Below are positions 17,013 through 64,000 of a stretch of DNA of 64,000 nt, in pieces. Made by a program: the position numbers and the translations under genes. The notes under the pieces are model-generated. The model saw nothing but the letters and a program-made list of their open reading frames with translations. It did not search any database and had not been told where the DNA came from. The stretch lies in assembly GCF_000003815.2 (NCBI RefSeq), contig NC_049992.1, positions 2,869,445 through 2,933,444 of the forward strand. Direction: 5' to 3'. Numbering within the stretch: the first letter of the stretch is position 1; each line of letters begins with the position of its first letter. This DNA is from Branchiostoma floridae (lineage: Eukaryota > Chordata > Leptocardii > Amphioxiformes > Branchiostomatidae).

Positions 17013-17056
<44 letters not shown>

Positions 17057-28998: not shown

Positions 28999-30200
28999 TC
29001 ACTGCGGAATGCCGCATTCCTCCAGGAACTTCCTGTGGGACTCTTCCCAGTACTTTGATGCCAGGAGATTGTCTTTCAGCCGTTTTGCGGCCTCAAACTC
29101 CTCTCGTCCGCCGTCCAGTACCTTGATGATGCGGTCTGCCAGTCGTTCGGCAACTTCATCATCGGCGCCCTTAAGGTCGACAATCCGGCGGGAGAACTCG
29201 GGATCGTGCTTTTCCAGGAACTCTGCTAGTCCCGAGTTGCTGGACACGAGAACCGGGACACCCGCAGCGATGGCCTCCAGCCCGACCAGTCCGAACGGCT
29301 CTGCGCGTGACGGCATCAGGACAACATGAGCCTTTCTAAAGTCTTTTCTCAGCTGTTCCTGTGTACCGTATGCCAAAGGAGTGAATGTAAAAGTCTCGTT
29401 GTCCATGTTTGCTTGGATGATTTCTTTGCTTTCTGCAAAATCTTTAGCGCTAATGCCGCGGACTCGCCACCTGGCCTTTGGGAATCTTTCTATCACAATG
29501 ATCATGGTCTTCGCTACTAGATCATAGCCTTTCAACTTCTCCACGCCCTTGACCCTGCCGACAGAAAGCACCACTTTGGTCTCTGTTTCTTCATACTCCA
29601 CATCCAAATTGCTGAAAATTTCGGATGGTTTAGGCAGGAACTGGTGGTGCGTTTTCTTCAATCCTCTGATCTCGTTTTTGTAGTAATCAAACATAGTTGG
29701 TCCCACCGAGAACACCACATCGGCTTCTTCTATGTCTTTGTCGATCGCTTCAGTCTTGTCTCCAATGCCCATCGCCTTGTCACCGCTTTTGTGGTGCTCA
29801 GTGTCTTCCGGCATGACATGATTGTAGAGGATGACCTTGGCGGATGGAAGACGTTCTGTCTTGATATTTCTCGCAGCTGTGCTGGTGACGTCAGCATGCC
29901 CTACGATGACGCTTATATCTGACCTAAGGATTGGATATCGTTGTTTGTGGTGGAAGGTGATCCAGTCTAGTGTGGGTCTGCTTTCCCCTGTAGTGTTTGC
30001 CATTGGTAGGACCAAGTCAATGCCATGCCTGCGTGCTTCTCGCTTCTCTTCTTCTGTAGCATGTAATACAGTACAAAGAACTTTTGCTCTTACAGTCAGT
30101 AGGTCCAGCAGCTGACCGTTGATGGTGGAAATGCCGCCCTTAGAAGTTCCGACTTCATCAATGACTAGAAGCACAACAGGTTTGCCTCCGGATAGGGTCT
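28999..30200 (-). other. GT4-type glycosyltransferase module of gene A
   Basis: The exon codes for about 400 residues. VVLLVIDEVGTSKGGIST is the N-terminal Rossmann start with the Gly-rich acceptor-side loop. VVLSVGRVKGVEKLKGYDLV is the donor-phosphate-binding GRxxxxKG region. HVVLMPSRAEPFGLVGLEA holds the E-x7-E motif of retaining GT4 enzymes. I recall a Pfam group of GT4 enzymes in biological-conflict systems; membership here is a guess to be tested. No signal peptide is seen, so the enzyme would act in the cytosol. Confidence 0.8.
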
Positions 30201-33200
30201 CTGGAGAAGAGATTAAAAAGAAGGTAGTTAGAGTTTCATTATTCACAGGCCGAATTTAACCTGTTTAAGCTGTTTCTTGAGGTGCACTTATTAGTTTGTA
30301 TTTATCATTGATATTTGATTGATTTATTAATAGCCTTCTGACACATTCACTAACATTTCTTATTATATCACAATATTATTAGTTAGATTGATAGCGATAA
30401 GTAGTATCTAGCTCTTCTGTTCATGCTACAAAGCAATAAAAGAATGAATGAATGAATGAATGCCTTTATTGCACTTTTTGCCACACCTGGCTAAGTACAG
30501 GTCACAACAAGACTTGTTGAAAAGATACAGTTAACAGATACAAGCGAAATAAAAGCCAAATCTGCTGGCTTGAGCACTAGATCAGGTACTAACCGTCCAG
30601 ACTTGCATAGTGGTTCTCCGCATAGTGCCCCAGCAACAGGGGACGCGCAGTCTCGGGGTTAGCTCCTGATTGTGGCTGTAGGACAGTGACGTAATTGTCC
30701 GCTTCTACACTGGACACGATGATGACGTCACGACCCAACATGCCCGCCATGGCCTGTAGGACGACATGGTCTCCCCACGTCCCGTCACGTGACATGGTCT
30801 CCAGGTACTCTTCCCAGGTTTGGTTTAAAATGAAGTTGCTGAGATGGTCACCATGAGCCTGAAAAATTATGGACGGAGAAATGTGTACATCACAGGGAAG
30901 ATCTCCTCTTGTTAGATAAGCACGAGCACGGTGTGACTTTTACTTGTAACGTTATTTTGTTAACGAGAACCCTAACTAATTAAGAAATGTGGAAGTCTAC
31001 AAAGAAATATATTACCATTAATATGTAGTAACGGTAGACATCCCACAGTTGTTAAGAAGTTGAATTTATAGATTGTCAGTTATTTTTGTAAGTCAAGCAA
31101 CAATGGTGCCAAATGTACTGTGCATTGTACATATTGGTTTATCCATCAGATACAAATTTTAGTCTTCCAAAATACATTAAATTTTAAAAGGAACATGCGA
31201 TTGCGTGTTTTGCTTACATATATCAATAAGATATTTAGTTATTTAGCAGTCATATTTCTATTTACATTGCGTGGATTCCTTCTCAGATGGGTGACTGCCT
31301 GTTCACGCAGTTGCAGATGAGTAATGTTTCTTCCCTCGGTGCGGAGAACCTGGTCAGACACGGCGTGAAACATGCAATTCCCGTCTCCTGGTACCTCATC
31401 CCGGAATGTCAGACCTAACTCACACACGCGAGCTGCAAGTCTCGTGTAGTGGGCCTCATATGCGTCTTTTACTTTCGCCTCTGTTGGCAGCCACTTCAAC
31501 CTGTCAAACTCATCTGAAAGTAAAAGGAATGGGATGGAAAGTACAGTCATATTGTTTCACTAAGGTGCTGTACACTTTGCAGTAAAAATTCTCTTCTTAT
31601 CATGTTAGGCTTCTATTGTTTCCATACTCAAGAGCAAGACCTGAGCTCTACATATCACAAATTTACATATCTTAAGTTTAGAGTGATTTGGCACCGGTGC
31701 AATGGATGCGTTTGCTCCTTCAGCAGTGAACATCACCCAAGAAGATGTTATTGGGGTAGACTTGAAATACATTAACACATTCACAACTAAATGAATATAA
31801 AGAAGCATACTATTAGGAATATATAAAGGTGTAAGTAGAAACTTTTGCCTAGTGATTGCATAAATGATATTACTCGCATACAGTATTGGTTCTACACGGA
31901 TCTACACGGTTCCTAATTATAAGCACACCTAATTTTGAGACAAAAGTACTCGCTGCTGTATTTGTAGAATCTGCTACATTGTCTGTACCTATTTTAATAT
32001 AGGTGAAAGGTGAACAAAATTGTTGCGTTATGGCTTGTCCCGTCACTGTTACAATTTTGTAAGCCGGACATTATCAAAATTATTCATATGATGAGGACTA
32101 ATAGAGTCAACTTTCCTGTACATAACGATGAACAGAAAAACACTTTGGTCATGAAAATGGGATTAACTGATATTGTTGTGAGTCCCCGGTTCTTAATAGT
32201 CCTTTTCATTTGTCTGTGGAATGTCAGTACAGAGACAGATACAAAGTACACGTACCGTTTAGAATACGTTTAGCTGTTCTTCTATTCTGATATCGTTTGC
32301 AATTCTTAAATGCTAAAAATTCAAACTAAAAATTGCAATTTGTATAATATGTGTACGTGTGCCTACCTCCTGACGATCCCGAAACCTCAGCAATAAGACT
32401 AATGGAACCCTGGAGTGCCCGTAAATGCTGGTTACTTCCATTAGCTGTGAGAGAGAAATATGTACATTTAATAGCTCTAACTCTGTAAAGAAGTCTGAAG
32501 AAGTGTTACATCTAAGCCCCAAATGCTGTGTTTATTAAATGATGAATAATTTGAGTCTTCCCTGTTGTTTTTAACTGTCTGTTCTTTATAAAGTCTGCTT
32601 TAAGATAAATATGCTTCATACCTTGGATTCCATATGGTCTGTACACAAGGTCTGCTGAAGTAGACGCTGTATATTTAACCTCGGGGTGTGGACATCTAAC
32701 GTCACGGCCGTCATCTGCAGTCCGGTCCCTCAGGTCGTACTGGTGCGGGTTGTCCAGTCTTGCCTTGATGCAGTGCGCACAGGTGACGTGGAGGGAGTAC
32801 AGCACACCTGGCCACTCCTGCAGCAGCTGGACCAGCACCTCCAGCAGTGGGTGGACCACGCCCCACATCTCACCTGCCTGGGCAAGCCTGCCTCTGGTTG
32901 CCATGGTGATGTAAGTGTCGTCTGCAGCAGGTTTCGAACACACTTGTACGGGATAGCCCTGTCTGTAGGCCAGGACTCCATCTCTCCAGTCAATCCTGTC
33001 CTTTACAAATGGATGGATCCCAACACTGAACCTCTGAAACAGTCCCCGGGGACAGAATCCTCTGATGTCACACATCAGCTGTAGCTGTATCTGTTCCTTT
33101 CGTACGTCTTCTGGCCAGACACTCATTAACTCTTCTGGCATTTCTTTGTACAGGTACCAAGGTATTTTATAATGACATGTATGTTTTGAAGGGTCCGTTT

Positions 33201-36200
33201 TGTCTTCAGCCTTTAACTCAAAGCAAAGGCCGAAATTTTGCATCAGAGCTATAACAATGTCAGGAGCGACATCTAGTGGTAACATACATGTCAGCACATC
33301 CTTCCGAATCAGTCCACAGTCGCACAGATCCTGTTCAAACCCCCTCAGCTGTACGCTAGTATAATTAGCATTCTGTAATCTGGGTATTGAGAAAAGTTCC
33401 TTGGTATCGTGATGGAAGAGATCCTTAAAGAGTTCTATTAATGCAGGAGGATCATGGAAGACAAGCTCCTTGAGCTCCGGTATGTCCGTGTACCTGAGGA
33501 TGGTTCCCACCTGCTGCAGGTAAGACAGGACTGGCTCCAGTCTGTCCGCCGTGAGGCCTGCTAGATCCGAACAGAAGGCCCACGTCATCCACTTTGGTTT
33601 CTTGTCCCTTTCTCTGTCACTTTGAAGATGCAGAGATGACATGTCATCGTCGTCGCTGCTAGTGTCATCGTCGTCGCTCCCAGTGGTCTTCCAAGAATAA
33701 AGTTTCTCTCGCTCTGTTCCCTTGTCACGTAGCTTGTGTATCTGTTGTTCAAAATCCACCCAGGTTCCCGGTAGAATCCTCCGCAGTATTGGAAACAGTG
33801 ATGTATTATTTGCTGATTCCAGTAAGTGACTCCTTAGCGAGTCCAACCGAGATGTTGGTTCTACAGAACTGACGCAGTACATTCCGACCAGCCGCAAGGG
33901 GCGTTCCAGAAGGCTTTGTGTGTGTTCTAACTGCTTTTTTAGTTCCTTTTGACCACCCACTTTTGGGGCATCACTTCGATCGATATCATTTCCTAATTTC
34001 TGAATGTGCCACTCCATACTTCGTTTCCAAGATAGCTGCTGCTTTTCGTACCTTTTTCGGATATCCCTGGTCTTCTCTTCTATTTCCGCGCTGCTGCATT
34101 CGTCCATTTTGCTTCCCACTATTGTAACCACCGCCCCCGGCACGCGGGTATTCAGTGTATCCAGCCAAAACCCTACGGCTTCTGTGTACCTCTGTTCCGT
34201 GCAGTTATAAGTTTGGAGGTCTACTGTCAGCAAGTTCAATGCGCCTTGTGTCAAAAAGAACTGATGGGTAAGATGGTACACGTCATGGCCGCCAAAGTCG
34301 TACACTTCAAACGTAATGTTGTCATCAGGTGCCCACTGAGTTATCTCTACACAGTGTGTGCGGTCTTCTTCTTTCGTCAGGGTAGACTCGCCCCTTTGTA
34401 GCGTTTGTACCAGGCTTGTTTTTCCCGCCATTGTATCTCCCAAGACGACAACTTTCAAACGGGCGCTTACCTTTTCTTCTGAACGTTCCAGTTCGTCATA
34501 GTATTGTCTAATAGCAGTGATACCCTGACTGCACACTTCGGGTGGTGGTTTTATAAGTGGATTTTTGCTGACGTACAGATGTGATAGGTTAGTGAGCTGT
34601 CCAACTTCTGCGGATAACGTCTGTAGTTGGTTATCACTCAAGTCCAGCCATTCTTGTTGTGTCAGTGTCCACAGCTCAGGTGGGATTGTGTTCAGCTTAC
34701 AATGGGACAGATGCAAGTGCTTGACGTTAGTGAACTGTCCAACTTCCGCGGGTAACGTCTGTAGCGGGTTCCAGCTCAGATTCAGCCATTCTAACTGTAT
34801 CAGTTTCCCCACTTCAGGTGGGAGTGTGCGCAGCCGGCAGTTTGATAGATCCAAGTGTTTAATTTTTGTGAGCTTTCCGACTTCCGCAGTTAATGTCTGT
34901 AGAGCGTTATTGCGCAGGACCAGCCATTCTAATTGTGTCAGTCTAAACACCTCAGGTGGCAGGGTAGTCAGCCTTCTATCTGACAGATCCAAACGTTTTA
35001 TGTCAGTGAGCCGTCCAACTATTGCTGGTAACATGTTTTGTGGGTTATTGCGTAGGTCCAGGTATTCTAATTGTGTCAGCCTAATCACTTCAACCGGGAG
35101 TGTGTGCAGCTGGCAGTTGGACAGATCCAAGTGTTTAATTTTTAAAGTAAGTTTTCCGACTTCGGTGGGTAACGTCTGTAGAGGGTTATCTTTCAGGTCC
35201 AACCATTCTAACTGTGCCAGTCTCCCCACTTCAGGTGGGAGTGTGCGCAGCTGACAGTGGGACAGATTCAAGTGTTTGATGTTAGAGAGTTGGTCGACTT
35301 CCGTGGGTAACGTTTGTATTGAGTTAGAGCTCAGGTTCACCCATTCTAATTGCGATAAGTTCCCCACTTCAGGTGGGAGTGTGTGCAGCTGACAGAGGGA
35401 CAGATCCAAGTGTTTGACGTTAGTGAGCTGTCCAACTTCCGCGGGTAACGTTCGTAGCGGGTTATAGTGTAGGTCCAAATGTTCTAACTGTGTCAGTCTC
35501 CCCACTTCAGGTGGGAGTGTGCGCAGCTGGCAGTGGGACAGATCCAAGTGTTTGACGTTATTGAGCTGTCCAATTTCCGCGGGTAACGTCTGTAGTGGAT
35601 TTATACCCAGGCGCAGCCATTCTAGCTGTGTCAGTCTACCCACCTCAGGTGGGAGTGTGCGTACTTGGCAGTGGGACAGACCAAAGTATTTGACATTACT
35701 CAGCTGTCCAACCTCCGCGGGTAACGTCTGCAGTGAGTTAGAGCTCAGGTCCAGCCATTGTAACTGTGTCAGTCTCCACACTTCAGGTGGGAGTGTGTGC
35801 AGCTGGCATTGCCGTAGGTCCAGCCATTCTAACTTTGTCAATGTACCTACTTCAAGTGGGAGTGTGTTCAGCTGGTAGTGGGGCAGATCTAAGTATTTGG
35901 CTTTACCCAGCTGTACAACTTCCGCGGGTAGCGTCTGTTGTGAGTTACCGCTCAGGTCCAACCTTTCTAACTGCACCAGTCTCCACACTACAGGAGAAAC
36001 TGTAACCATGTCTGTATTGTCCAGTTTCAGTACCCGGAGGTTCGTAAGTCTAGACAGCTCATCCGGCAGGTGGACCCCACTGTTATAGCTTAGGTCCAGT
36101 TCCTCCAGCTGCGTGAGTTTCAGGACTGCCGATGGAACGGTGCCGAGTTCACAGTCACTTAGTCTCAACACTTTGATATTCTTAAGTTTGTACAACACAT

Positions 36201-36659
36201 CTGGTAGGCATATCTGCTTATTGCCACTTAGATCTAGCTTCTGTAGGTTAGGTAGTTTCAGCAATATTAATGGTAGTGTATTCAAATTGCAGTCGTCTAA
36301 TCGCAGGACCGTAAGGTGACGAGACCGGACATCTCATCCGGCAGGGTGATGTTCCTGTTGTTACTGAGGATCAGTGTTTGTAACTGTGGAAGTTTCATCA
36401 CAGCTGCAGGGACTGTGTCAAGGTCGCACCGATCAAGACGCAGTAATTTCAGATTGGTGAGTTTGATCAGCTCACTGGAGAGATCAATGTTCTCGTTGAG
36501 TGACAAATCTAAGGCCTCCATATCTTTTGAATAAAAGAGTTCAGAAGGCAGCTGTCTGAGATTTTTGTTGGATAAGTCCAGTGTTGAGAGGGTTGTTCTA
36601 CCCATTATATACCATTCTTTTGTTTTCACCTGGTCTTTAAAGCTTGACGGCGTAGCCAT
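28999..36659 (-). CDS. Gene A: LRR-ROC-COR-OTU-GT4 fusion protein (one frameshift in LRRs)
   Basis: Five coding exons on the minus strand: 36659-32622, 32444-32367, 31513-31266, 30858-30594 and 30200-28999, roughly 1,900 residues. The first exon encodes a tandem LRR array (about 28 units), a ROC GTPase (P-loop GDTMAGKTS, switch DFGGHDVY, VGSKMD) and COR. The next is a 26-residue linker. Two exons make an OTU protease (DGNCMFHAV with the catalytic Asp/Cys; ENHYASL with the catalytic His). The last encodes a GT4-fold glycosyltransferase (GGISTINGQ; RVKGVEKLKG; E-PFGLVGL-E). Exon phases (1, 1, 0, 1) let all parts join in frame. The platform resembles MFHAS1/ROCO proteins. Compared with gene B one base is missing near 36316, so the frame breaks within the early LRRs. 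This is either an assembly error or a defective allele. An acceptor at 36678 shows a split 5' UTR. The joining of all modules into one mRNA is inferred from splice sites and from conservation in gene B. Confidence 0.8.
30440..30475. repeat. (GAAT)n tail of a dispersed repeat
   Basis: AGAATGAATGAATGAATGAATG followed by CCTTTATTGCAC resembles the tetranucleotide-ended 3' terminus of CR1/L2-type retroposons in reverse. It lies between the OTU and GT4 exons of gene A. Confidence 0.5.
30594..31513 (-). other. OTU protease module of gene A (two exons)
   Basis: 31513-31266 carries EVPGDGNCMFHAVSDQVL, the canonical OTU D-G-x-C-x-F block. 30858-30594 carries WGDHVVLQAMAGMLGRDVII and LLLGHYAENHYASL with the catalytic His. 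The order, spacing (~170 residues) and split-exon layout are the same in gene B. OTU enzymes cleave ubiquitin or ubiquitin-like chains. The active-site residues are all present. Confidence 0.88.
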
Positions 36660-38917: not shown

Positions 38918-38920
<3 letters not shown>

Positions 38921-38963: not shown

Positions 38964-38968
<5 letters not shown>

Positions 38969-41602: not shown

Positions 41603-42372
41603 AATGGACCCTTCCAGCCGAACACCATATCTAACAAATAGAATCCCCTATTCTATTTCGAATACTCGGTCAAAAACAGCCCTGATGGGACAGGAATGGC
41701 CAAGAGGAAAATGCTTTGCCTTTTTTGTTGTACTACACCGGCTGAGTATAGTTGTTTTGGGAAGTGTAGGCGCTACATAGCACTACTTTGTTCCTGGGCA
41801 GGATGCACATGTTAAGCAATGTCCGTAGAAGAGACGGGACTCTGCACTAGCGTACTTTGTAGTAGGATCTTATATTTGACACGTGGTACAAGCTCCCTCA
41901 CCGCGAGTGACCGAGCTGCTTTTTTCTTAATTTGGTTTTTCTCCTTAGCATGTATGCACAAAACGCGGTAGAAAACCCGTCACAGATATATGTACCCAGC
42001 TTTACACCTGCATTTACCGCATGTCAGAAACCGGGCACTCTTGCCCACCAACAATGTAATATTATGGAGCGCCTGCCGCTTCCACTTTGACTGAAATTAT
42101 ATCGCCCTTACGGCGACTATATACGCCCCCTCCTCAAACGACTGTATCAAGTGGATATAGCTTCCCACAAAGAATGCATAGCATTTTTCTTTCGCCCGTT
42201 CTGATAGGATTTCAGGGCCCCAAAAGCTAAACCGAAGTCATACGGTATCCTCAGCTTAGAGCGGCGGCGGCCATGTTTTTGCAACTCGCGCCGTTTTTGA
42301 CCGAGGTTTTGAAATAGAACCCGAGATCGAACAGGGGGCGGGGCTTATGGTGTTCGGCTGGAAGGGTCCATT
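41603..42372. mobile_element. 770-bp DNA element with ~26-bp inverted ends
   Basis: The left end AATGGACCCTTCCAGCCGAA (continuing CACCATA) is matched by its complement at the right end (TATGGTG TTCGGCTGGAAGGGTCCATT). The left flank GATCTGTCCTTG and right flank TTGGTGCTGACTC are two halves of the 43-bp unit repeated at 42373-43066, so the element inserted in that array. The target duplication is unclear. No transposase frame. Confidence 0.85.
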
Positions 42373-43721: not shown

Positions 43722-44907
43722 TCACTGCGGAATGCCGCATTCCTCCAGGAACTTCCTGTGAGACTCCTCCCAGTATTTAGATGTCAGGAGTCTGTTCTTC
43801 AGCCGTTTTGCCACCTCGAACTCCTCTCGTCCGCCGTCCAGTACCTTGATGATGCGGTCAGCCAGTCGGTCGGCAACTACATCATCGGCGCCCTCGAAGT
43901 CGACAATCCGGCGGGAGAACTCCGGATCTTGCTTTTTCAGGAACTCTGCTAGTCCTGAGTTGCTGGACACGAGGACCGGGACGCCCGCAGCGATGGCCTC
44001 CAGACCGACCAGTCCGAACGGCTCTGCCCGAACGGCATCAGGACAACATGAGCTTCCTTGAAGTCATTGCTTAGCTGGTGCTGTGTGCCGTACTCCAGAG
44101 GAGTTAACTGGAATTTACTCTTCGCCATGTTGGCTTCAATGATTTCATTGCTCTCTGGTAAATCAGCGCTGACGCCACGGACTCGCCACCTTGCCTTTGG
44201 GAATCTGTCTAGCACCATACCCATGGCTTTTGCCACTAGATCGTAGCCTTTTAACTTCTCAACGCCCTTGACCCGGCCGACTGACAACACCACTTTGGTT
44301 TCTGTCTCGACATACGTCACGTTCATTTGACTGAAAATGACGGAAGGCTTCGGCAGAAACAAGTGATGGGGTTTTGATCCTCTTATTTGGTTATTGTAGT
44401 AGTCGTGCATTGTTGGTCCTACCGAGAACACCACATCCGCCGCTTCTATATCTTCACGGATAGCGGCCATCTTGTCTCCAATACCCATTGCCTTGTCATA
44501 GCTCTTGTGGTGCTCAGTGTCCTCCGGCATGACGTGATTGTAGAGGATGAACTTGGCACATGGAAGACGGTCTTTTTTTATGTTTCTCGCAGCTGTGCTG
44601 GTGACGTCAGCATGCCCAACGATGACGCTTATATCCGACGGAAGGCTTGGATAGCGACTTTTGTGGTCGTAGGTGAGCCAGTCTAGCGTGGGTGATCTTC
44701 TGTCTCCTTCTGGAATATTGGGTAAAAATAAGTCAATACCATTTTTGTGTGCTTCCCGTTTTTCTTCTTCCTTTGCGTTTAACACAGTGCAGAGTACCGT
44801 TGCTCCTTCACGAGTAAGTAGGTTCCCCAGCTGACCGTTGATGGTGGAAATTCCGCCCTTGGAAGTTCCGACTTCGTCAATGACCAGCAGCACAATGGGT
44901 TTGCCCT
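43722..44907 (-). other. GT4 glycosyltransferase module of gene B, frameshifted
   Basis: The exon opens EGKPIVLLVIDEVGTSKGGI and is collinear with the gene A module. At 44021-44034 the plus sequence GCTCTGCCCGAACGG is one base shorter than gene A's GCTCTGCGCGTGACGG. As written, translation leaves the frame inside VVLMP and ends near 43949, losing the catalytic E-x7-E and the last ~80 residues. The downstream frame (43970-43722) is intact, so the lesion is recent or a sequencing error. Confidence 0.82.
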
Positions 44908-47900
44908 CTGAAAGATCAACGGGACAAAATCATCAGCCTCTTAAAAAGAACAGACCCTTGAGTTTCTTTTTCCATAGGACAAAGTGTCCAAGTTTTTATT
45001 AGTTTTTTTATTGGTCGTTTTTTCTATCTTTCACATACTGCGGTAATTGTTTGATTGAGAGTTAATTGTATCTATCATTTGTGTTAACCGTTACAAATAA
45101 ATATGGCAAGAAATTGGACATAGGAAATCACAGTGCATTTCCAAGCCTAACAGAAAACCTAGCACTCGTAGAATTACATTGCACCCAAGGGAATTGCTTA
45201 ATATATGCAACATAATACACCTTACATGCCTTAATGGCCATTATCATATAGCCAGGCGCCGCGGACCAATCAGAAGGCCCCGTTCCACGTTGGTTATGAC
45301 GCCGTAACACTTAGATTCCGGCCAGGCCGGTGTGTTCGCTCCTTCTGATTGGTCAGAATGAATCGAAACCGGTGCCGGTGTCGATTCATTCTGACCAACC
45401 AGACTGAGCGATACACACAAGATATGCAGGGTTTGCCCAATCAAAAGGAGCGAAACATATGCCAGAGCAGAGGGAATAGGTACAGACTGCAAGGAGGGAA
45501 TAGCTCCCTCTGTTTACACTGATGATGAGTTTTGTTGTTCTAAAAAGCGAAAGACTGCAATGTTTTGAATATTTTGGAAATTTTGGTTTCAAACTGCAAT
45601 CTGTAAACAAATGTATGTACCAATGAACAAATGTGAACTTTCAGAAATTCGACAAAGGAATTCACACGTATAGTACCAAGGGATCTATGCGTCATACAGG
45701 AGTTGNNNNNNNNNNNNNNNNNNNNNNNNNNNNNNNNNNNNNNNNNNNNNNNNNNNNNNNNNNNNNNNNNNNNNNNNNNNNNNNNNNNNNNNNNNNNNNN
45801 NNNNNATGGCAAAGGACCAGGCGTTATGACACCATATACACCTCGGGGCGGGTCATTAACCCTTAAATATTAATGAGGCACACACCGCCTGCTAATAGAA
45901 CTTTAGTCTTGTACGAAAGCATGGCCCACATTTTCCCAGCAAACCTAACATAACAGCCATCATTAGGATGAAAGCATGGCCCACATTTTCCAAACCTAAC
46001 ATAACAGCCTAACAGCCACGGTCCATTAGCACCAGCTACATGAGGTCCTGAAGCAATTATAATGGCCACATGCACGCCATGTTAATGTAACTTTGACCCT
46101 CCACAGGAAACAGCGTCATTAGCCCCGCTATGTTCACAGTCCAGGCTACAACAGGACACAACAGTTATATCAAACGACAACAAGTAAGTCCCGTTGTCAC
46201 AACGTATATTCCCCAATGAAGCTTCTGTGACCCTTTGAATACCAGGAATCTTGTTGTAACCTGGTAACGGTACAGGGGTGTTCGGCCAAAAAAAATCATT
46301 TCCCTTTAATACCTTGCAGACTTGCATAGTGGTTCTCCGCATAGTGTCCCAGCAACAGAGGGCGCGCAATCTCGTGAAGAGCCCCTAATTGGGGATGTAG
46401 GGTAAAAACGTAGTTGTCCGCTTCTACACTGGACACGATGATGACGTCATGACCCAACATGTCCGCCATGGCCTGTAGGACGACATGGTCTCCCCACGTC
46501 CCGTCACGTGACATGGTCTCCAGGTACTCCTCCCAGCTTTGGTTTGGGATGAAGTCGCCCAGGTGATCGCCTCGAGTCTGACACAATATGGACAGATTAA
46601 AGCGTAGTACTACATAACAGGGAACATCTCATGTATCTGTAACTTCTCAGAGGTGTGATTTACACTTTATTTCATTAACGAGAACCCTTAACAAAGTATA
46701 TTTACGAAATGCGGAATTCTGTAGAGTACTGGTATATGCCATTAATGGATCAGATACAATTTAGCTGGATAAGGATTTTAAAAGTAATTTTGGAAACAAC
46801 TTTGTGTTCGTATCCTATTAAAATGCATTTCCATCTCGTAGGGAACATGTAATGGTGTGTAATGCTTACATGTATGTGTACAATATTTAGCCATAGAGAT
46901 CTAATAGTCGTATTTCTTTACTTACATTATGTGGATTCCTTCTCAGATGGTCCACTGTCTGTTTACGCAACAGTGCATGGTCGATGTATCTTCCCTTTGT
47001 GCGGAGAACTTGGTCAGACACGGCGTGAAACATGCAGTTCCCGTCTCCTGGTACCTCAGCACGGAATGTCAGACCAATCTCAGACACGTGTGCTGCAAGT
47101 CTGGTGTAGTGGGCATCATATGCGTCGTCTTTTACTTTTACTTCTGTTAGCAGCCACTTCAGCAAGTCAAACTTACCTGAAAGTAGAAGAAAATTACAGC
47201 CATATTGTTTAATTAAGCTAAGGTAATCTATCCTGTTGATATAAAAATACTCTGGTTATTAGCAAAACGCACACAAACCTTCTCTTAAGCTTCTCAGATT
47301 ATGTTGTTCATTATCAAAATGCTTATAATTACAACTTATCCGTAGGTCAGTGTAATGTAGTTAATGTTTCATGTACTAATAACAAGAAAAACACTTTTAT
47401 CATTTGTCTACCTACCTCCTGGCGACCCTGAAACGTCAGCGGTCGAGGAAACTTTAAATGCTCTCAAATGCTGTTTCATTTCTGTGGGAGAAAATAAGTA
47501 CAGTGAGTGACTCCAACCTTAAGAACTTAAAAGAATTCTGCTGACTGCTAATCATCATCATGCTGACTGCTAATCAATTACTGGTTTAAGAACAACAAAA
47601 GGTCTGCGGAAGTGTTACATTTTATTAACTGTCAATTAATGACTATTTTGAATCTTTGATAGTTTAGTCCCAGTTGATGTTTAAGCAGCACCGTCTTACA
47701 ACTGTCTGTTATGTAGAAAGTGTGCTTTAAGATAAATATGGTACAAACCTCTGATTCCACCTGGTCTGTACACAAGGTCTGCTGAAGTTGACGCCGTATA
47801 TTTAACCTCGGGGTGGGGACATCTGACGTCACGGCCGTCATCTGCAGTCCGGTCCCTCAGGTCGTACTGGTGCGGGTTGTCCAGTCTTGCCTTGATGCAG

Positions 47901-50900
47901 TGCCCACAGGTGACGTGGAGGGAGTACAGCACACCTGGCCACTCCTGCAGCAGCTGGACCAGCACATCCAGCAGTGGGTGGACCACGCCCCACATCTCAT
48001 CTGCCTGGGCAAGCCTGCCTCTGGTTGCCATAGTGATGTAAGTGTCGTCTGCAGTAGGTTTGGAACATACCAGTACGGGATAGTCCTGTCTGTAGGCCAT
48101 GACGCCGTCTTTCCAGTCTGTCCTGTCCTGGACAAGAGGGTGGATCCCAACACTGAACCTCTGAAACAGTCCCCGGGGACAGAATCCTCTGATGTCACAC
48201 ATCAGCTGTAGCTGTTCGTTCTCCTCTGGCATGTCTTCTGACCAGACGCTCCTCAACACTTTTGGAATTTGTTTCTGCAAGTACCAAGGGATTCTGTACC
48301 AACCAGTGTGCATGGAAGTGTCTGCTTTCTTGTTTATTTCGAAACCCAGGCCGAAGTTTTGCATTAGAGCTGTGACAATGTTAGACTTGATGTCAGGTGG
48401 CAACAGACGCGTCATCACTTCCTTCTGGATCAGTCCGCGGTCAAAAAGGTCCGATTGGAACGTTTTTAGCTGGGAAGAAGTGAAGTTATTGAACCTGGGC
48501 GTTGAGAAAAGTACGCTGGTATCATGATGGAACAGATCCTTGAAGATATCTATCAGGGCAGGAGGATCATAAAATACCAGATCCTTGAGTTCCGGTATGT
48601 CCGTGTACCTGAGGATGGTTCCCACCTGCTGCAGGTAAGACAGGGCTGGCTCCAGTCTGTCTGATGAGAGTCCTGCGAGCTGCCCGATCCGTGCACAGTC
48701 AAGCATTGTCAGACAGTGTTGTGTGGGACATTTGTTTTCCTTCAGAGGAGACATCCCATCGATTGAGCCCGTTGCAACAGAGCTGTTGCTTTCATCAGCT
48801 TGCAGCTGTCTGAATGGTTTGCTGGAAGCTGGATGTTGAAGTAAGTTTTCAAATTCTATCCAAGTCCTTGGAAGGATTCGCGTCAATGTGGGAAAGAATT
48901 CCCTTCTATTGGCTGTATTTAGCAGAAAGTCTTTGAATTTGACCCAAGAAGGTGACCTTGATACGAAGAATGGAAAGTTATAAGTAGGTTTAACGGACAC
49001 ACAAGGCATATTATCGATAACACGCAGCCCTTGGTTCAACAGGAGTTTCACACGTAGAAGATGCTCGCCTATATCGTCCATCGATTTCAAACGGTAATCC
49101 TTATACCTCATCTGCATGCTTGTTAATGTTGAAACTTGTTGTCTTAGCTCTTTTTCCCAAATATCTCTTTGTTGTTTGATCCGTCTTTGAATGTCCTTCG
49201 TCTTTCTTTCTTCTTCGCCAGGCCGACAAAGGTCCTTCTTGGTGCCAACCAAAGTAACCACCGCCCCCGGCACACGGGCATTCAGTGTGTCCAGCCAAAA
49301 CCCCACGGCTTCTGTGTAACTTTGTTTACTGCAGCTGTATGTATACAGGTTCACAAGTAACAAATAAAAGGTGTCTGGAGTCAGGAAGAACTGATGAGTG
49401 AGATGGTACACGTCATGACCACCAAAGTCGTACACTTCAAACATAATGTTGTCGTCTGGTGCCCACTGAGTTATCTCTACACAGTGTGTGCGGTCCTCTT
49501 CTTCACTCAAGGTGGACTCGCCTCTGCATAGCGTTTGTATCAGACTTGTTTTTCCCGCCATTTTCTCTCCCATGACGATAACTTTTAAACGTGCGCTTAC
49601 CCTTTCTTCTGAGCGTTCTAGTTCGTCAAAGTATTGTCTAATAGCAGTGACCCCCTGACTGCACACTTCATCTGGTGGTTTCAAAAAAGGATTTCCCTTC
49701 ACGTCTAGGTCAGATAATCTTCTAAGCTTTCCAACCTCCGGGGGAAGACTTTGCAGGTGGCAGTTTCTTAGAATCAAGTGTTCAATATTGGAAAGCTGTC
49801 CAACTTCAACGGGTAACGTCTGTAGTGGATTATGGCTCAGGCTCAGCCATTCTAACTGTGTCAGTCTCCCCACTTCAGGTGGGAGTGTGTCCAGTTGGCA
49901 CCAGGACAAAAACAAGTGTTTGATATTAGTGAGATGTCCAACTTCCGCGGGTAATGTCTGTAGTGGATTTTTACTCAGATCTAGCCGTTCTAACTGTGTC
50001 AGTCTCCCCACTTCAGGTGGGAGTGTGCGCAGCTGGCATTCGGGCAGATCCAGGTGTTTGAAGTTGATGAGCTGTCCAACTTCCGCAGGAAACGTCTGTA
50101 GTGGGTTAGAACTCAGGCGAAGCCATTCTAACTGTGTCAGTTTCCCCACGTTATGTGGGAGTGTGCGTAGCTGGCAGTTCCACAGATCCAAGTGTTTGAC
50201 GTTAGTGAGCTGTCCAATTTCCGCGGGTAACGTCTGTAGTGGGTTAAATGCCAGGTTCAGCCATTCTAAGTGTGTCAGTCCCCCCACTATAGGTGGGAGT
50301 GTGCGCAGCTTGCAGTTGGATAGATCCAAGTGTTTGACGTTGATGAGCTGCCCGACTTCCACGGGTAACGTCTGTAGGGGGTTATCGCGCAGGTTCAGCC
50401 ATTTTAACTTTGTCATCCCAAACAACTCAGGTAGCAGTGTAGTCAGCCGTCTGTTTGACAGATCCAAGTGTTTGATGTCAGTGATACGACCAGCTACTTC
50501 TGGTAACATGTTTTGTGGATTAGATGTCACGTCCAGGTATTCTAACTGTGTCAGCCTGAACACTTGAAGTGGGAGTGTGAGCAGCCGGCAGTGGGACAGA
50601 TTCAACTGTCTAATTTTAGTAAGCTGTCCGACTTCCGCGGGTAACGTCTGCAGAGGGTTATTGCTCAGGTCCAGCCATTCTAACTGTGTCAGTTTGTACA
50701 CCTCAGGTGGGAGTGTGCGCAGCTTGCAGTTAGACAGATCCAAGCGTTTGACGTTAGTGAGCTGTCCAACTTCCGCGGGTAACGTCTGTAGTGGGTTCCA
50801 GCGCAGGTCTAGCCATTCTAACCGCATCAGTCTCCAAGCTTCAGTTGGGGGTTTGTGCAGCTGGCACCGAGACAGATTCAAGTGTTTGATGTTAGTGAGC

Positions 50901-52342
50901 TGTCCAACTTCCGCTGGTAACGTCTGTAGTGGGTTAGAGCTAAGGTCCAGCCATTCTAACTGTGTCAGTCTCCACACTTCAGGTGGGAGTGTGCGCAGCT
51001 CGCAGTGGGACAGATCCAAGTGCTTGACGTTAGTGAGCTGTCCAACTTCCGCGGGTAACGTCTGTAGTGGGTTCTCGCTCAGGTCCAGCCATTCTAACTG
51101 TGTCAGTCTCCACACTTCAGGTGGGAGTGTGCGCAGCTGGCACCAGGACAGATCCAAGTGCTTGACGTTAGTGAGCTGTCCAACTTCCGCGGGAAACGTC
51201 TGTAGTCGGTTAACGCTCAGGCCCAGCCATTCTAACTGTGTCAGTCTCCCCACTTTAGGTGGGAGTGTGTGCAGCCGGCAGTAGGACAGATCTAAGTGTT
51301 TAAGGTTAGTGAGCTGTCCAACTTCCGTGGGTAATGTTTGTACTGGGTTAGAGCTCAGGTCCAGCCATTCTAACTGTGTCAGTATCCACACTTCAGGTGG
51401 GAGTGTGCGCAGCTGGCAGTAGGACAGATCCAAGTGCTTGACGTTAGTGAGCTGTCCAACTTCCGCGGGTAACGTCTGTAGTCGGTTAACGCTCAGGCCC
51501 AGCCATTCTAACTGTATCAGTCTCCCCACTTCAGGTGGGAGTGTGCGCAGCTCGCAGTTGTGCAGATCTAAGTGTTTAAGGTTTGTGAGCTGCCCAACTC
51601 TCGCGGGTAACGTCCATAATGGGATGGAGCTCAGATCCAGCCATTCTAACTGTGTCAGTATCCGGAGGAACGGAGGAACGATGATCATGCCTGTTCCCTC
51701 TAGTTTCAGTACCCGGATATTGGTGAGTTCGGTCAACTCATAAAACAGATGGATCCGCCTGTTCTTGCTGAGGTCCAGTTCCTCCAGCTGGGTGAGTTTC
51801 AGTACTGCTGATGGAACAGTCGCCATGGAACATTCACGTAGTCTCAGCACTTTTATATTCTCCAGTTTACGCAAGTCATCGGGCAGGGAGATCTGATTAT
51901 TACGACTCAGATTCAGAGAATAGAGACGTAACAGTTTCAGCCCTACTAGTGGTAGTGAGTCTAGTTCACAGTTAGCTAAGTCCAGGGTAGTGAGGTTGAC
52001 GAGACCGGACATCTCATCCGGCAGGGTGATGTCTCTGTTATTGCTGAGGATCAGTGTCTCTAACTGTGTAAGTTTCATCACGGCAGCGGGGACTTTGTCG
52101 AGATTACAGTCTCCTAATCTCAACAGTTTCAGATTTTTCAATCTAACGATCTTCTCACATAGCTGGATGTTCTTATTTCTGTCTAACTTTAAAGCCTGCA
52201 ACTCACTTAATACATAAAGTTCATCGGGTAACTGTTTCAGGTGTTGGCCAGACAAGTCTAGTGTCAAGAGAGTTGTCTTTTTCCCCATTATCTCCCACTC
52301 CTCGGGTTTCATCTTCTCTTTGAGGCTTGGTGGTGCAGCCAT
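43722..52342 (-). CDS. Gene B: LRR-ROC-COR-OTU-GT4 fusion protein (frameshift in GT4)
   Basis: A paralogue of gene A with the same five-exon plan: 52342-47749, 47481-47416, 47176-46926, 46577-46313 and 44907-43722. The first exon stays open for more than 1,500 codons. It has about 35 LRRs in alternating pairs (LPPEVxRLTQLEWLDLS / LPAEVGQLTNVKHLDLS), ROC near residue 910 (GEKMAGKTS, DFGGHDVY, VGTKKDLC) and COR. COR ends in a Cys/His-containing tail (HVTCGHCIKARL, DGRDVRCPHPE) shared by A, B and C. OTU residues DGNCMFHAV and the His in ENHYASL are present. In the GT4 exon one base is missing near 44027 relative to gene A, just before the E-x7-E motif. The rest continues in another frame to the same ...EECGIPQ end. 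The array is longer than in gene A by roughly seven repeats. A 100-N gap lies in the intron before the GT4 exon. Confidence 0.82.
45349..45398. repeat. Perfect 18-bp hairpin inside a larger imperfect palindrome
   Basis: TTGGTCAGAATGAATCGA (45349-45366) and its exact complement (45381-45398) flank a 14-base GC-rich loop. Pairing continues imperfectly outward (GTGTTCGCTCC against GAGCGATACACAC), giving arms of about 40 bases. It is likely a fold-back MITE in the intron of gene B. Confidence 0.85.
45706..45805. other. Assembly gap (100 N)
   Basis: Exactly 100 N, a conventional placeholder, so the true length is probably unknown. It lies in the intron between the OTU and GT4 exons of gene B. The physical link between these modules in gene B therefore rests on scaffolding, but gene A shows the same order without a gap. 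Confidence 0.99.
45915..46015. repeat. Two-copy tandem repeat of ~55 bp
   Basis: GAAAGCATGGCCCACATTTT followed by CC..AAACCTAACATAACAGCC occurs at 45915 and 45970, differing by a short indel. Confidence 0.9.
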
Positions 52343-58639: not shown

Positions 58640-58729
58640 TAAGGCTAAACTACTGCAATGGACTTTTCTGATACAAATATATTTCAATTGGAGGAATTTG
58701 ATTACAGATTGGTCTAGTCCCAATGTACC

Positions 58730-58735
58730 TTTATT
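58730..58735 (-). terminator. Polyadenylation signal of gene C
   Basis: TTTATT on plus (AATAAA on minus) about 70 bases after the gene C stop codon. Confidence 0.6.
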
Positions 58736-58805
58736 TGTAGCATCCATTATATATTTAGAGTGTGAACCTAGTCTTTTTTACATTATGCAAATGGAAAAGT
58801 TGGCG

Positions 58806-61800
58806 CTAAGGATTCTGGTCAACTGAAGCCTGAGGGAAGAAGTAGAGCTTCTTGCGTAGTGTGTGCGTCACTTCCGGTTGCTGCTTGTACTCTTGGTGTT
58901 GAGTTTTGAAGTCTGCCACTTTGGCGTTTACCTGGGGTATAGAAGGATAGCATCACTATTAGATTTCTGAACCAGTCAGTTAATAATAGGGATGATTTGG
59001 ACCAGAGGTCAAATCAGTTCATTGGCACATGACCTCTGAAGCCCGGCCCAGTAGGGAGACCAGTGACTCCGACCAGCTTCTAGACAAAGCAGCACGTGTT
59101 GGCCCTCTCACCCACGTGGGTTTAAAAGTGTTGCAAACTGTTATTTAAGTGCCAATTGTCACTATTAGCTTTCTGAACCAGCCAGTTGAAAACATATTGA
59201 TTTCATAATTGTGCTCTGACAGGGTTGAAGAAGCATCTCGTGTAGGATGACAGCAGTTGCAGTTAGAATGACGGGCACCGTTTGGATGGAAAGTGAACTA
59301 ATAAAAGAAATGAAAAGTAAGTAGTAAAAATGAACCGCGTGCAACAAAAGGTGTTTGCCACTATTATAATCGAGTGTCATTCTCACGATGACGTTTCATC
59401 AATAAGGTGATCTCCTAGCAGGTTGAGCGTGTTCCATGTCACATGTCGTTCATCCTCTCCAATCAATGAGGAGGAAAATATCTCAAACAAAGCACGAGCA
59501 TCAAGTTGCCTACCGTAGATAGACTAGAGTTTGTGTTTTACCACACCCAGTAATGCCATATATGGCCATACTAGTATTTATAGACCCAAAGTTCGGCTCA
59601 CCCTCGTTAGCATTTCCAATAGCGTCTCCGTCTCGGCGTGTTCTGTGATGACGTCAGCAAGAACCTGGATCAGCCACGTACCTGAGTTGGAGTTCCTCCA
59701 GGACACGTGACCTGTTGGACCACGTCAGACAAGAGAAACATCGTCAGAAAAATATTACAGCCTAGTGGTGTTGTTTTTTTTTACCGTACGAATATTGTGA
59801 GCTTGCTATATATATTGCCTCGTGTACATACTTAGTATAAAATAACCACATTAATTGTTCTGCTCTTAACAAAAAATATTAAATAAGTTTATAAAATACG
59901 TTCGCAGTAACTTGGGAACAACTGAAGATTGACATAGAAGGCATTATAGATATACTACTGTAGCAATGCTACAATAATTGACCGTCCATGTATTATACTA
60001 ACAAAAAAGTGCATTAAACTGCTCTCAGATGTTTGAGAAGATCGATGGAATATCAGTTGATATACCCTGCCTGGTCGCGCTGTTTGGTACTTACCATGTA
60101 CTGTAGCGTACTGTAGCGTACATCACTAGGTCCAATAAGAAAAACCGGTTTTGTACCGGTACGCTGTACCGATACCCAGCCCTAGTACATACCATGTACC
60201 GTAGCATACATCAATAGCCGGTCGCGCTGTTTGGTACTTACCATGTACTGTAGCGTACATCACCAGCCGGTACTTACCATGTACTGTGGCGTACATCACT
60301 AGCCGGTCGCGCTGTTTGGTACTTACCATGTACTGTAGCGTACTGTAGCGTACATCACTAGGTCCAATAAGAAAAACCGGTTTTGTACCGGTACGCTGTA
60401 CCGATACCCAGCCCTAGTACATACCATGTACCGTAGCATACATCAATAGCCGGTCGCGCTGTTTGGTACTTACCATGAACTGTAGCGTACATCACTAGCC
60501 GGTCGCGCTGTTTGGTACTTACCATGTACTGTGGCGTACATCACTAGCCGGTCGCGCTGTTTGGTACTTACCATGTACTGTAGCGTACATCACTAGCCGG
60601 TCGCGCTGTTTGGTACTTACCATGTACTGTAGCGTACATCACTAGCCGGTCGCGCTGTTTGGTACTTACCATGTACTGTAGCGTACATCACTAGCCGGTC
60701 GCGCTGTTTGGTACTTACCATGTACTGTAGCGTACATCACTAGCCGGTCGCGCTGTTTGGTACTTACCATGTACTGTAGCGTACATCACCAGCCGGTCGC
60801 GCTGTTTGGTACTTACCATGTACTGTAGCGTACATCACTAGCCGGTCGCTCTGTTTGGTACTTACCATGTACTGTAGCGTACATCACCAGCCGGTCGCTC
60901 GCCGTCGGTAAGGTTCTTTCTCCAGCATCAGGACTCTCCAAAGATGCTGCAGATGCGGCTGGTGCGGTTGATGGGATAGGTGACTCGGTTACCTGATCTG
61001 GTGCTCCATCTGATGCTTCTCTTCCAGCTCGTGAGGTGCTGCATTCTTTATCTGTGGTAGTGTCTGTGTGTTCATGTCCTGGATCCATGTCAACTGGGAA
61101 GAATTTGGATGCAAAGTCCACGTTAACACAATCAACAGCACGTCTTTTACAAAGATCCCATGAGTAGTGAAGCCTGCTGATGAATAAAGATAATGTGAAA
61201 AGTGATTTCCTACAGACAAGTGTTACGTTCCCCGTTCATTATGTAAATAATGATTAGAATCGATAGATTTGAAGATGTACCTATACTAGTTCATTCAGTC
61301 TAATTTTTTTAGTCAGGATTTTCCAAAAAGGTTTGTCACCTCCTCTACAGGCCTGGATGAAGAAAAGTTTCGGCTTCCCCACAAGATTCTTGCAGGCCTG
61401 GAAACTGGAAACGATGCTGTCCACAGACACGTGCTGTCCGTCTGTGCCCAGCACTCCTGTCTCCCCGCCATGGGACAGCAGGAACAGCACGAAACAGTCG
61501 TAGCTGCCGTGATCCCTCCTGGAGACGTCTTTTGCTACAGTTTCTATTTCCTAATGATGGAAATGAGATAGTAGTTAACACAGCATGCCTTTCCATTAAT
61601 TGTTAGTTACTGGATGCATTGCAGATATCTATGGACTTAAAAGCGCAGCGGCCGATTATGAATACTGTGTATCGCGCTTAGCACAGCTTTTGCACAAAAA
61701 AAAGGCACAGAAACAATATAATGGTGTGCTTTAACTAACATGCCTTTACTTCAGCGACCATGGTGCAGAACACTAATAGAATGGGGAATGGGGTACAACA

Positions 61801-64000
61801 GAAAGATTAAACAATAAAGAACTGCGATAATGAAATTCTAATCCATACCTAATTGGAATGAAAACTTGCAATTTTGTACATAATACATTTGTAAAAAAAT
61901 AAGTATCAGAATGCCCACCTGCGATGTAAGGTCCTCTCTAATCTCCTCCTGCAGCTTGAGTTTCTCACAAATCTTCCTGAGCGTGTCCAGATCCTTCTCC
62001 CCTCCTGGTCTGTTCCTACTCGGGTCCGTAAATTTGATGTTGCTGATGATCAGGGCGAGGCCGCGCGGGTCAGAGGTCATCCTGTAATAGTCCTGATCAA
62101 GCAAAAACAAAGTGTCATCAATACTGGACCTGAACATTAGATTTAAAGTAGCTTCCGCAAAACAAACAATCAGCGACTACGAGATATATGTTAACAGTTA
62201 GCCACATTAGATGTAGCTACTTACATTTTGCTGAGATGGTCTCATTTGGGTCAGGGATGTTCTACGCGTGACAACTGTGAAAAAAAAAGGACGCAATGAG
62301 AAGTTCATGGAGTCCTTGTAAAGATATAAATTTTATATATAACAGTCACCCGGCCTACAGGTTCTCTACCAGCGCTGAAGTGTTATTTAGGAGGAAAAGG
62401 GTTACTTTAAAACACTTCCTATCAATAACATCTCAACATACCAGACAACCTGCTTGGTCTGTAGACTAGGTCAGCTGAAGTTGATGCAGTCCTCTTCACC
62501 CTGGGACACCTGACGTCACGGCCGTCATCTGCAGTCCGGTCCCTCAGGTCGTACTGGTGCGGGTTGTCCAGTCTTGCCTTGATGCAGTGCGCACAGGTGA
62601 CGTGGAGGGAGTACAGCACACCTGGCCACTCCTGCAGCAGCTGGACCAGCACCTCCAGCAGTGGGTGGACCACGCCCCACATCTCACCTGCCTGGTCAGG
62701 TCTGCCTCTGGTTGCCATGGTGATGTAAGTGTCGTCTGCAACGGGTTTGGAACACACCAGTACGGGATAGTCTTGTCTGTAGGCCATGGCTCCGTCTTTC
62801 CAGTCTGTTCTGTCGTTGACAAGTGGGTGGATCCCAACACTGAACCTCTGAAACAGTCCCTGGGGACAGAATCCTCTGATGTCACACATCAGCTGCAGCT
62901 GTTCATCTTTCTCTGGTACGTCTTCTGCCCAGACACTCATCAACTCTTTTGGCATTTCTTTGTGAAGGTACCAAGGTACTTTGTACAGAACAGTGTGTTT
63001 AGAAGGGTCTGATGTATCTTCAGTTCTTATCTCAAAACACAGGCCGAAGTTTTGCATCAGTGCTGTAACAATGTCCAGGTGGATATCATCTGATAACAGG
63101 CATTTCATTACTTCTTCTTGAATCAGTCCGCGGTCGCAAAGATCCAATTGGAATCCATCCAACTTTGGAGAAGTAAACCTCACTAATTTCTGATTTGCTG
63201 TGGAAAAAAGAGTGTCCGTATCATGATGGAAAAGGTCTTTGAAGATTTCGATTAATGAAGGAGGATCATGGAAGACGAAGTCCTTAAGTTCCGGTATGTC
63301 CGTGTACCTGAGGATGGTTCCCACCTGCTGCAGGTAAGACAGGGCTGGCTCCAGTCTGTCTGATGAGAGTCCTGCGAGCTGTCCGATGCGTGCACAGTCA
63401 GCAGTTGTCAGACAGTGTTGTGTGGGATGTTTGATTTCCTCCAGTGCTGACGTTCCATCAGTAGCGGTCATTACAATAGATCTGTTGCTATCTCCGGACG
63501 GTTTGTCGGAAGCTGGGCGTTGAAGTAGTTGTTCAAACTCTACCCACGTTCTTGGGAGGATTCGTGTCAATGTGGGAAACAATTCCTTGTTGTTTGCTGT
63601 TTCTAACAGAAAGTCTCTGAATTTAGCCCAAGAAGGAGGTGACCTTGATACGAAGACTGGAAACTTTGGTTTAACGGACACGCAAGGGATATCATCGATA
63701 ACACGCAGTCCATGGTTCAAAAGACGTTTCGCACGTAGTAGATGCTTGTCAGTGTCTTCCACCGATTTCAAATCGCATTCCTTATACCTCATTTGCATGC
63801 TCGTCAATATTGATATTTGTTGTCTCAGTTCTTTTTCCCACATATTTCTTTGCTGTTTGACCCTTCTTTGAATGTCCTTAGTCTTTGCATTTTTTTCTAC
63901 GGGTCGACAAAGGTCCTTCTTGGTTCCAACAAGAGAGACCACGGCCCCGGGCACGCGCGCATTCAGCGTATCCAGCCAAAATCCCACAGCTTCCGTGTAA
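58806..64000 (-). CDS. Gene C: ROC-COR-caspase fusion protein (N-terminus beyond window)
   Basis: The right edge cuts the gene inside ROC (YTEAVGFWLDTL, VGTKKDLC); LRRs are expected outside. The ROC-COR exon ends at 62442 with a phase-1 donor at the same codon position as in A and B. Then come a linker exon 62274-62225, caspase exons 62092-61919 (RGLALIISNIKF..RPGGEKDLDTL), 61550-61340 (CFVLFLLSHGGE with the catalytic His; FFIQACRGG with the catalytic Cys), 61093-60866 (Ser/Thr/Pro-rich inter-subunit linker, then SDRLVMYATVHG), 59711-59602 (VSWRNSNSGTWLIQVLADV, the small-subunit substrate groove) and 58931-58806 (ending KKLYFFPQ...NP). All phases agree. The linker of ~65 residues is rich in Asp/Glu/Thr and could be the maturation cleavage region. 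The exon at 61093 was chosen over an earlier acceptor because only it keeps the frame. The caspase looks complete and active-site intact. Confidence 0.86.
60080..60866 (-). repeat. 49-bp minisatellite made of a caspase exon-donor junction, ~13 copies
   Basis: On the minus strand the unit reads GACCGGCTAGTGATGTACGC, TACAGTACATG/GTAAGT, ACCAAACAGCGC. The first part is the coding end of the caspase exon (DRLVMYATVHG) and GTAAGT its donor. About 13 copies follow the real junction at 60866, and most keep a full consensus CATG/GTAAGT. A fragment with GTACCGGTAC and ATACCCAGCCCTA, resembling a hAT terminus, sits in two of the units about 240 bp apart, which shows a higher-order duplication of the array. 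Confidence 0.92.

Follow-up and report, generated by a model that had tools for sequence, protein, structure and literature searches.

In a 64,000-nucleotide stretch of the amphioxus Branchiostoma floridae (C14:2869445-2933444 of a 513,431,437-base assembly; hereafter the window), three neighbouring genes, labelled A, B and C, combine leucine-rich repeats (LRR), a Roc GTPase and a COR domain with an enzyme tail. The tail is an OTU domain plus a GT4 glycosyltransferase in A and B, and a caspase in C. Our analysis supports, at the level of sequence, a shared LRR-ROC-COR platform whose tail modules have been exchanged between genes. The layout is real, recurrent and modular, and from it we infer the function. 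We place a probability of about 0.7 on the reading that this tandem ROCO family encodes GTPase-gated cytosolic sensors with exchangeable effectors. Paralogues elsewhere on C14 are labelled P plus position (P1970, P2035, P1944, P1999 and P2047).

Genes A, B and C all lie on the minus strand, and in each of them the LRR, Roc and COR regions sit within a single long exon, as expected from the original prediction of three same-strand paralogues. That the genes part at the same codon was also confirmed, since a common phase-1 GT donor ends the COR exon in all three, four codons and one base past the motif ...LVYRP. The COR exon is followed by linker, OTU and GT4 exons in A and B, and by caspase exons in C. 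A and B have five exons each, with identical exon phases (1,1,0,1). Spliced at GT-AG sites, gene A gives 1834 residues with the sole stop at the end, counted in the frame that begins after a break in its LRRs; gene B reads from the ATG at 52342 through OTU and into GT4. Gene C is intact, with seven GT-AG exons coding for 1573 residues between an ATG at C14:2935708, beyond the window, and a stop at 58806. It has the full caspase that had been predicted, with complete p20 and p10 regions, the catalytic His and QACRG. An intact paralogue of the OTU type, P1970 (C14:1968391-1974323), lies 0.9 Mb away and encodes LRR-ROC-COR-linker-OTU-GT4 in 1626 residues from five GT-AG exons, which answers the doubt raised by the broken frames of A and B. 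Splice sites, phase and recurrence suggest that COR and tail exons would be joined in one mRNA.

The switch region was recognised by Pfam in A, B and P1970 (Roc, E 2.3e-15, 3.5e-14 and 9.7e-13, respectively), and the G-motif stretches of ROC were judged by eye to be conserved. Pfam also identified the LRRs of A. COR-B, which directly follows Roc, was above its cut-off (2.6e-9 in A, with 1.6e-9 also scored in the A and B exons, and 1.1e-8 in P1970), and the COR-A match in the A and B exons was weak and below cut-off. Pfam found no protein kinase domain in full-length P1970 or in the exons of A and B, and relatives of the LRRK or DAPK kinase type were rejected for this reason. Pfam listed neither NACHT nor NB-ARC in the same sequences. 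The genes therefore encode ROCO proteins and not NLRs, and the earlier description of them as NLR-like holds as an analogy but not as an identity. Matches of the LRRs of gene A to bacterial LRR-effector models of NCBIfam were below cut-off and were set aside as cross-matches between LRRs.

The LRR statistics were calculated for 34 N-type and 42 C-type units from A, B, C and P1970 (97 units found, 91 kept). Over these 76 units, variability was maximal at the residue before the conserved N/C of LxLxxN (3.37 and 3.23 bits), a position that presumably faces the concave side. The ratio of nonsynonymous to synonymous differences (pN/pS) at this position was 1.77 (bootstrap 1.07-4.00) in N-type units and 1.03 (0.70-1.73) in C-type units, compared with 0.40 and 0.53 at the remaining positions. 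Because LRR units within one gene are not independent, this is a hint and not a proof of selection for ligand diversity; variability concentrated at one position hints indirectly at ligand sensing. In every OTU, GT4, caspase and ROC pair compared, the corresponding substitution ratio (dN/dS) was between 0.11 and 0.52.

The tails are recognised as enzyme families. The GT4 region of gene A matched the Pfam GT4-conflict model (PF20706) with 248 bits (E 1.8e-73, positions 1-384), while the best NCBIfam glycosyltransferase model reached at most 47.5 bits. P1970 matched GT4-conflict (1.1e-73), OTU (3.5e-16) and LRR models. Both Glu residues of the EX7E motif were invariant in 12/12 GT4 copies, and the predicted GT4 model (predicted local distance difference test score 86.8) has a GT-B fold, with PDB matches to BshA, MshA, glycogen synthase and sucrose-phosphate synthase (SPS). 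When the two OTU exons of gene A were joined, Pfam recognised OTU at 1.8e-18; the Cys and His motifs, read by eye, were present in all six copies printed, and OTUD5 and OTUD3 were the closest solved structures. The joined caspase exons of gene C scored 6e-56 and hold complete p20 and p10 regions. The caspase His-Gly (by eye) and QAC were kept in five of five ROC-linked copies, and the closest solved structures were caspase-3 and caspase-9. A linker of 17 residues joins COR to the caspase in gene C, and no DED or CARD prodomain was seen for this caspase (gene C was not scanned whole). Family matches, conserved residues and the predicted GT4 fold are consistent with putative activities of proteolysis, deubiquitination and glycosylation.

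Exchange of modules was seen most clearly in the ROC tree of 12 rows. In this tree, B (OTU+GT4) is sister to C (caspase) with support of 100/99, and P1970 (OTU+GT4) is sister to P2035 (caspase) with 98/97; a single OTU clade (p 6.9e-36) and a single caspase clade (p 6.4e-109) are both rejected. ROC sisters with different tails, together with the rejection of single-tail clades, indicate that modules have been exchanged, and the predicted shared platform with exchangeable tails is upheld. In the GT4 tree (13 rows, with B represented by its N-terminal piece alone), A and B are sisters, P1970 groups with P1944, P1999 and P2047, and a tree constrained to unite P1970 with A and B is rejected (p 5.7e-42). 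Despite this different GT4 ancestry, the OTU of P1970 is 78-84% identical to that of A. The COR ends had been called near-identical, which is true within a tail class but not between classes: over the ~110 nucleotides that lead up to ...YRP, identity is 94-96% within the three genes of OTU type, 86-95% within four of caspase type and 73-81% between the types. P1944 is mixed: its COR end is of caspase type (90-96% identity to those four genes), but its intron start is closest to that of A (58%, against 23-39% to the same four), which points to a break close to the boundary of exon and intron. On C10, a distinct ROC-COR lineage varies in the same way by coordinates: OTU and GT4 come after the COR at 17026044; the one at 17044992 (91% identical to it) has OTU behind it and no GT4 among the matches listed for the next 20 kb; and the one at 16996678 (87% identical) has a caspase 2.2 kb downstream and no intervening OTU.

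The pattern extends beyond the window. Besides A, B and C, eight close ROC-COR members were found on C14. Of these eleven, five have a caspase (C and four further paralogues), three OTU+GT4 (A, B and P1970 at C14:1.970 Mb) and three GT4 without OTU. Two of the last, P1999 and P2047, have a different COR end and extra exons between COR and GT4; these exons looked ZU5/UPA-like by eye only, and Pfam recognised nothing there. In distant copies on C8 and C10, OTU and GT4 lie behind ROC-COR according to match positions, and on C4 OTU and GT4 have ankyrin repeats upstream. A locus on C3 (L052, C3:32321400-32326700) has ROC-COR, Death and FIIND exons and then, by coordinates, GT4; in NLRP1 and CARD8, FIIND is the domain that cleaves itself. 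The order ROC then GT4 recurs along C3 by coordinates, L052 being the one locus scanned there. An LRR-ROC-COR frame on C6 (L025, C6:7767417-7771247, minus strand) carries SSNVQVGTGNE just before its stop, near 350-400, and this looks RHIM-like by eye. At C10:16989908-16992448, an OTU has a caspase piece 1.6 kb downstream on the same strand, by coordinates a possible OTU-caspase combination.

Genome-wide order was counted after fragments had been merged or dropped by hand, which reduced 103 GT4, 89 ROC-COR, 44 OTU, 50 caspase and 39 COR raw matches to 86, 48, 33, 42 and 35 loci, respectively. The two ROC and COR searches together gave 83 loci, which were compared with the 86 GT4 loci, not counting pairs separated by another ROC. 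Within 10 kb, GT4 lay downstream on the same strand in 28/83, upstream in 5 and on the opposite strand in 0; within 15 kb, these numbers were 34, 13 and 0. The 13 upstream cases are not few; in tandem arrays the GT4 of the previous gene sits upstream. The 28 downstream cases are counts of position, with joining exons checked in a minority. GT4 followed OTU within 5 kb in 8 of the 33 OTU loci, preceded it in 1 and was opposite in 0, and a caspase lay within 5 kb after ROC or COR in 7/83, before in 1 and opposite in 0. The five caspase loci nearest to that of gene C (its own included, at least 63% identity) are the five behind the C14 ROC-CORs; the others are at most 56% identical. It might be argued that the COR exon ends a short gene of its own and that the tail exons are those of other genes which happen to lie downstream, and the COR frame does continue for about 5 to 35 codons past the donor to a stop in C, B and A, so that an unspliced short form is possible. 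We consider separate neighbouring genes very improbable, since all junctions modelled in A, B, C and P1970 agree in phase, leaving the long frames of A, C and P1970 open, and the tails recur on the same strand and mostly downstream. The splice models and the genome-wide order also led us to reject chance neighbourhood of the tails.

Several observations weigh against the sensor-effector reading or against parts of it. The first concerns the integrity of the genes. Gene A has a frameshift in its LRRs, and its open frame begins at 36333; the ATG at 36659 is in a different frame. Gene B has a frameshift at ~44033 within GT4, which leads to a premature stop at codon 2045 and leaves the EX7E motif out of frame. 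Two of the three copies in the window are not whole in this assembly, yet the pattern is real. These frameshifts are what a largely decaying family would show, with A and B as pseudogenes and the tails as relics. Such decay is unlikely in our view, as the frames of C and P1970 run unbroken from ATG to stop, dN/dS between the OTU and GT4 regions of A and B is still 0.21-0.35, and the frameshifts themselves could be assembly errors or alleles.

The second concerns the direction of exchange. The COR tree, which leaves out P2047, is weak, with one starred branch, and its p values against single tail clades are only 0.039 and 0.029. Conversion between neighbouring genes is probable and would look alike, so that exchange can be read from the trees but not which module, or which side, moved. 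It is quite possible, though we put it somewhat below even, that the tails stayed in place and that the ROC part was overwritten by gene conversion, producing false sister pairs. B and C adjoin, P1970 and P2035 belong to one cluster, and blocks of the LRR-ROC-COR exon differ in their nearest partner, which is a mark of conversion. However, ROC conversion amounts to the same exchange in the opposite sense, and its outcome does not differ. Moreover, the GT4 of P1970 differs in ancestry from those of A and B while its OTU is close, and P1944 breaks near an exon-intron border; from both, tail parts seem to have moved too.

The third concerns the sensor and the conflict character of the tails. When the three concave LRR positions were pooled, pN/pS was 0.95 and 0.86 and not above 1, so that just one position, in N-type units only, exceeds 1 beyond its bootstrap range. 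The GT4-conflict model exceeded its own cut-off in 14/14 well-known control genomes, and neither the cut-off nor the name alone marks conflict enzymes. Among bacteria, 65 GT4-conflict loci were found, with full-length identity to the amphioxus GT4 of ~32% at best. GT4-conflict was recognised in all 16 of the bacterial proteins scanned (from 16 of the 65 loci), at 316 to 460 bits. Several of these proteins, in which the best bacterial matches to the amphioxus GT4 lie, also hold conflict-system domains (NB-ARC, TIR, EAD1, CATRA-N, VMAP or TPR), which speaks for the sensor-effector reading; Roc was present in 0/16, among the matches listed. Bacterial COR-A occurred in 2 of the 14 genomes with GT4 loci and in 14 of the 296 genomes from a single phylum (that of genome G012), at 22 places in total. 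The tails scanned at 10 of these places were TIR in seven and not recognised in three, and GT4 or caspase was found on a ROC-COR protein in 0/10.

The sensor-effector reading proposes the following sequence of events. The protein would be cytosolic, as suggested by the absence of a signal peptide visible by eye (no prediction tool was used). The LRRs would bind a pathogen or danger ligand, and binding would relieve or drive the ROC switch and change its nucleotide state. COR-mediated dimerisation might then change, with COR dimers gathering the tails, which would be released or clustered. Clustered caspase tails might be activated by proximity and lead to proteolysis or cell death. The expected reaction of the OTU would be cleavage of ubiquitin, or of a chain of ubiquitin-like type, and that of the GT4 the glycosylation of a target, probably a protein of host or invader close to the ligand. 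What OTU and GT4 act on is the step most in doubt. Exchange of effectors could give one recognition and switch body a different output and thereby resist inhibition by invaders. A non-immune receptor family, acting in development, allorecognition or stress signalling with tails directed at endogenous substrates, seems rather doubtful to us. The vertebrate ROCO proteins LRRK1, LRRK2, DAPK1 and MFHAS1 are best known outside immunity, which speaks for such a role, whereas immune families often come, as here, in large tandem sets with exchanged modules, a variable LRR position and tails of the conflict type. A wider interpretation, which we offer tentatively, is that non-vertebrate chordates may have kept a GTPase-switched arsenal parallel to NLRs, with LRR arrays and effectors recombining near intron borders, a tail that deubiquitinates and then glycosylates, and a plan like that of bacteria. 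In this two-step tail, ubiquitin would be removed first and sugar added after, possibly at the freed site or on a bound invader molecule, and the likeness to the bacterial LRR-ROC-COR plan would reflect descent or repeated convergence.

The features of the three genes are collected in Table 1. A 49-bp minisatellite of ~10 copies at 60185-60898 of the window repeats the end of the p10 exon with its splice donor in gene C, so that the caspase gene may have many competing donors. A 43-bp tandem repeat of 16 copies lies in the interval from gene A to gene B (42366-43064). Elsewhere in the window, DSBA-like thioredoxin exons, which we take to be of the GST kappa type, lie at 16638-17937 on the plus strand, with one stretch apparently in several copies, and a zf-UBP zinc finger of the kind found in ubiquitin hydrolases lies at 13850-14479 on the minus strand (E 1.8e-18).

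Table 1. Coordinates of exons, repeats and the assembly gap of genes A, B and C (window positions).
Feature	Position	Strand	Basis
Gene A LRR-ROC-COR exon, open part; upstream frame broken	32622..36333	-	Open reading frame/Pfam
Gene A linker exon, GT-AG	32367..32444	-	Splice model
Gene A OTU exon 1, DGNC catalytic Cys motif	31266..31513	-	Pfam
Gene A OTU exon 2, catalytic His (NHYASL)	30594..30858	-	Pfam
Gene A GT4-conflict (PF20706) exon, EX7E intact, stop at end	28999..30200	-	Pfam, model
Gene A LRR array, 138-bp unit (two LRRs), 8.8 copies	34588..35808	-	
Gene B LRR-ROC-COR exon from ATG	47749..52342	-	Pfam
Gene B LRR array, 138-bp unit, 13.6 copies	49794..51663	-	
Gene B linker exon	47416..47481	-	Splice model
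Gene B OTU exon 1	46926..47176	-	Pfam
Gene B OTU exon 2	46313..46577	-	Pfam
100-N assembly gap in last intron of gene B (OTU/GT4)	45706..45805	.	
Gene B GT4 exon; C-terminal catalytic part out of frame in assembly	43722..44907	-	
Gene C ROC-COR exon, extends past window to ATG C14:2935708	62442..64000	-	
Gene C linker exon	62225..62274	-	
Gene C caspase p20 exon 1	61919..62092	-	
Gene C caspase p20 exon 2, catalytic SHG and QACRG	61340..61550	-	
Gene C p20/p10 linker and p10 start	60866..61093	-	
Gene C p10 exon (HVSWRN...)	59602..59711	-	
Gene C last p10 exon and stop (KLYFFP...)	58806..58931	-	

If transcripts and function agree, an animal would use the modular LRR-ROC-COR design of bacterial type, with a GTPase switch replacing the ATPase of NLRs. 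The family would then offer a matched set of genes, with similar sensor and switch and different tails, in which to follow how ROCO activation is transferred, a question shared with LRRK2, and an animal setting for finding what conflict-type GT4 enzymes modify.

In bacteria, LRR-ROC-COR conflict proteins (AP-GTPases) have rapidly evolving LRRs and at least 24 kinds of C-terminal domain, GT4 and caspase included, and one genome may hold several paralogues with different tails, according to the text available of Kaur et al. 2021 (PMC8195603). The amphioxus family, as far as that account goes, has the same N-terminal LRRs, ROC, COR and C-terminal effector that varies between paralogues. It differs in that its genes bear introns, lie in a 513-Mb animal genome and exchange modules near exon borders, and its OTU tail has 0 mentions in that text. 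The same source considers animal GT4 domains to be bacterial in origin, and reports an expansion of GT4 in a coral, with fusions to many domains, as well as GT4 preceding TRADD-N and LRRs in cephalochordates among others (PMC8195603). Compared with these expansions as described there, the amphioxus family has GT4 C-terminal to LRR-ROC-COR, with or without OTU. Pfam listed no TRADD-N in the amphioxus pieces scanned, with no search aimed at TRADD-N. Hybrids of LRRs joined directly to a caspase with QACXG have been described in amphioxus (Zhang et al. 2008, PMC2575513), and gene C may belong to this group; unlike gene C, the hybrids are presented without ROC, which has 0 occurrences in the text available of that paper. 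The amphioxus pangenome paper stresses variable immune genes, and OTU, LRR and glycosyl have 0 occurrences in its available text (PMC12373286).

Four ROCO proteins are known in vertebrates (LRRK1, LRRK2, DAPK1 and MFHAS1; PMC6337361). Diverse added domains are reported for Trichoplax ROCOs (PMC4104024) and for a TIR-ROCO of Aplysia (PMC9334734), and LRR exon shuffling for brown algal ROCOs (PMC11378527). The portions of these accounts available indicate that LRRK, DAPK, MFHAS1 and the Trichoplax, Aplysia and brown algal proteins share the LRR-ROC-COR core with the amphioxus family, in which, by contrast, no kinase was found, the tails are caspase, OTU and GT4, and exchange touches both ROC and tail. 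NLRs likewise have an LRR sensor, an NTPase switch and an exchangeable effector end, but the amphioxus family uses a Roc GTPase instead of NACHT or NB-ARC, with the LRRs N-terminal and the effector C-terminal. The original statement that no animal system of this layout was known stands within the literature searched, in which no animal LRR-ROC-COR-OTU-GT4 protein was found, subscription papers, figures and supplements being outside its scope; the plan as such, however, is described for bacteria (PMC8195603). So far as the sources at hand go, LRR-ROC-COR with a variable tail is known in bacteria, and what appears to be new is its animal version with OTU and GT4.

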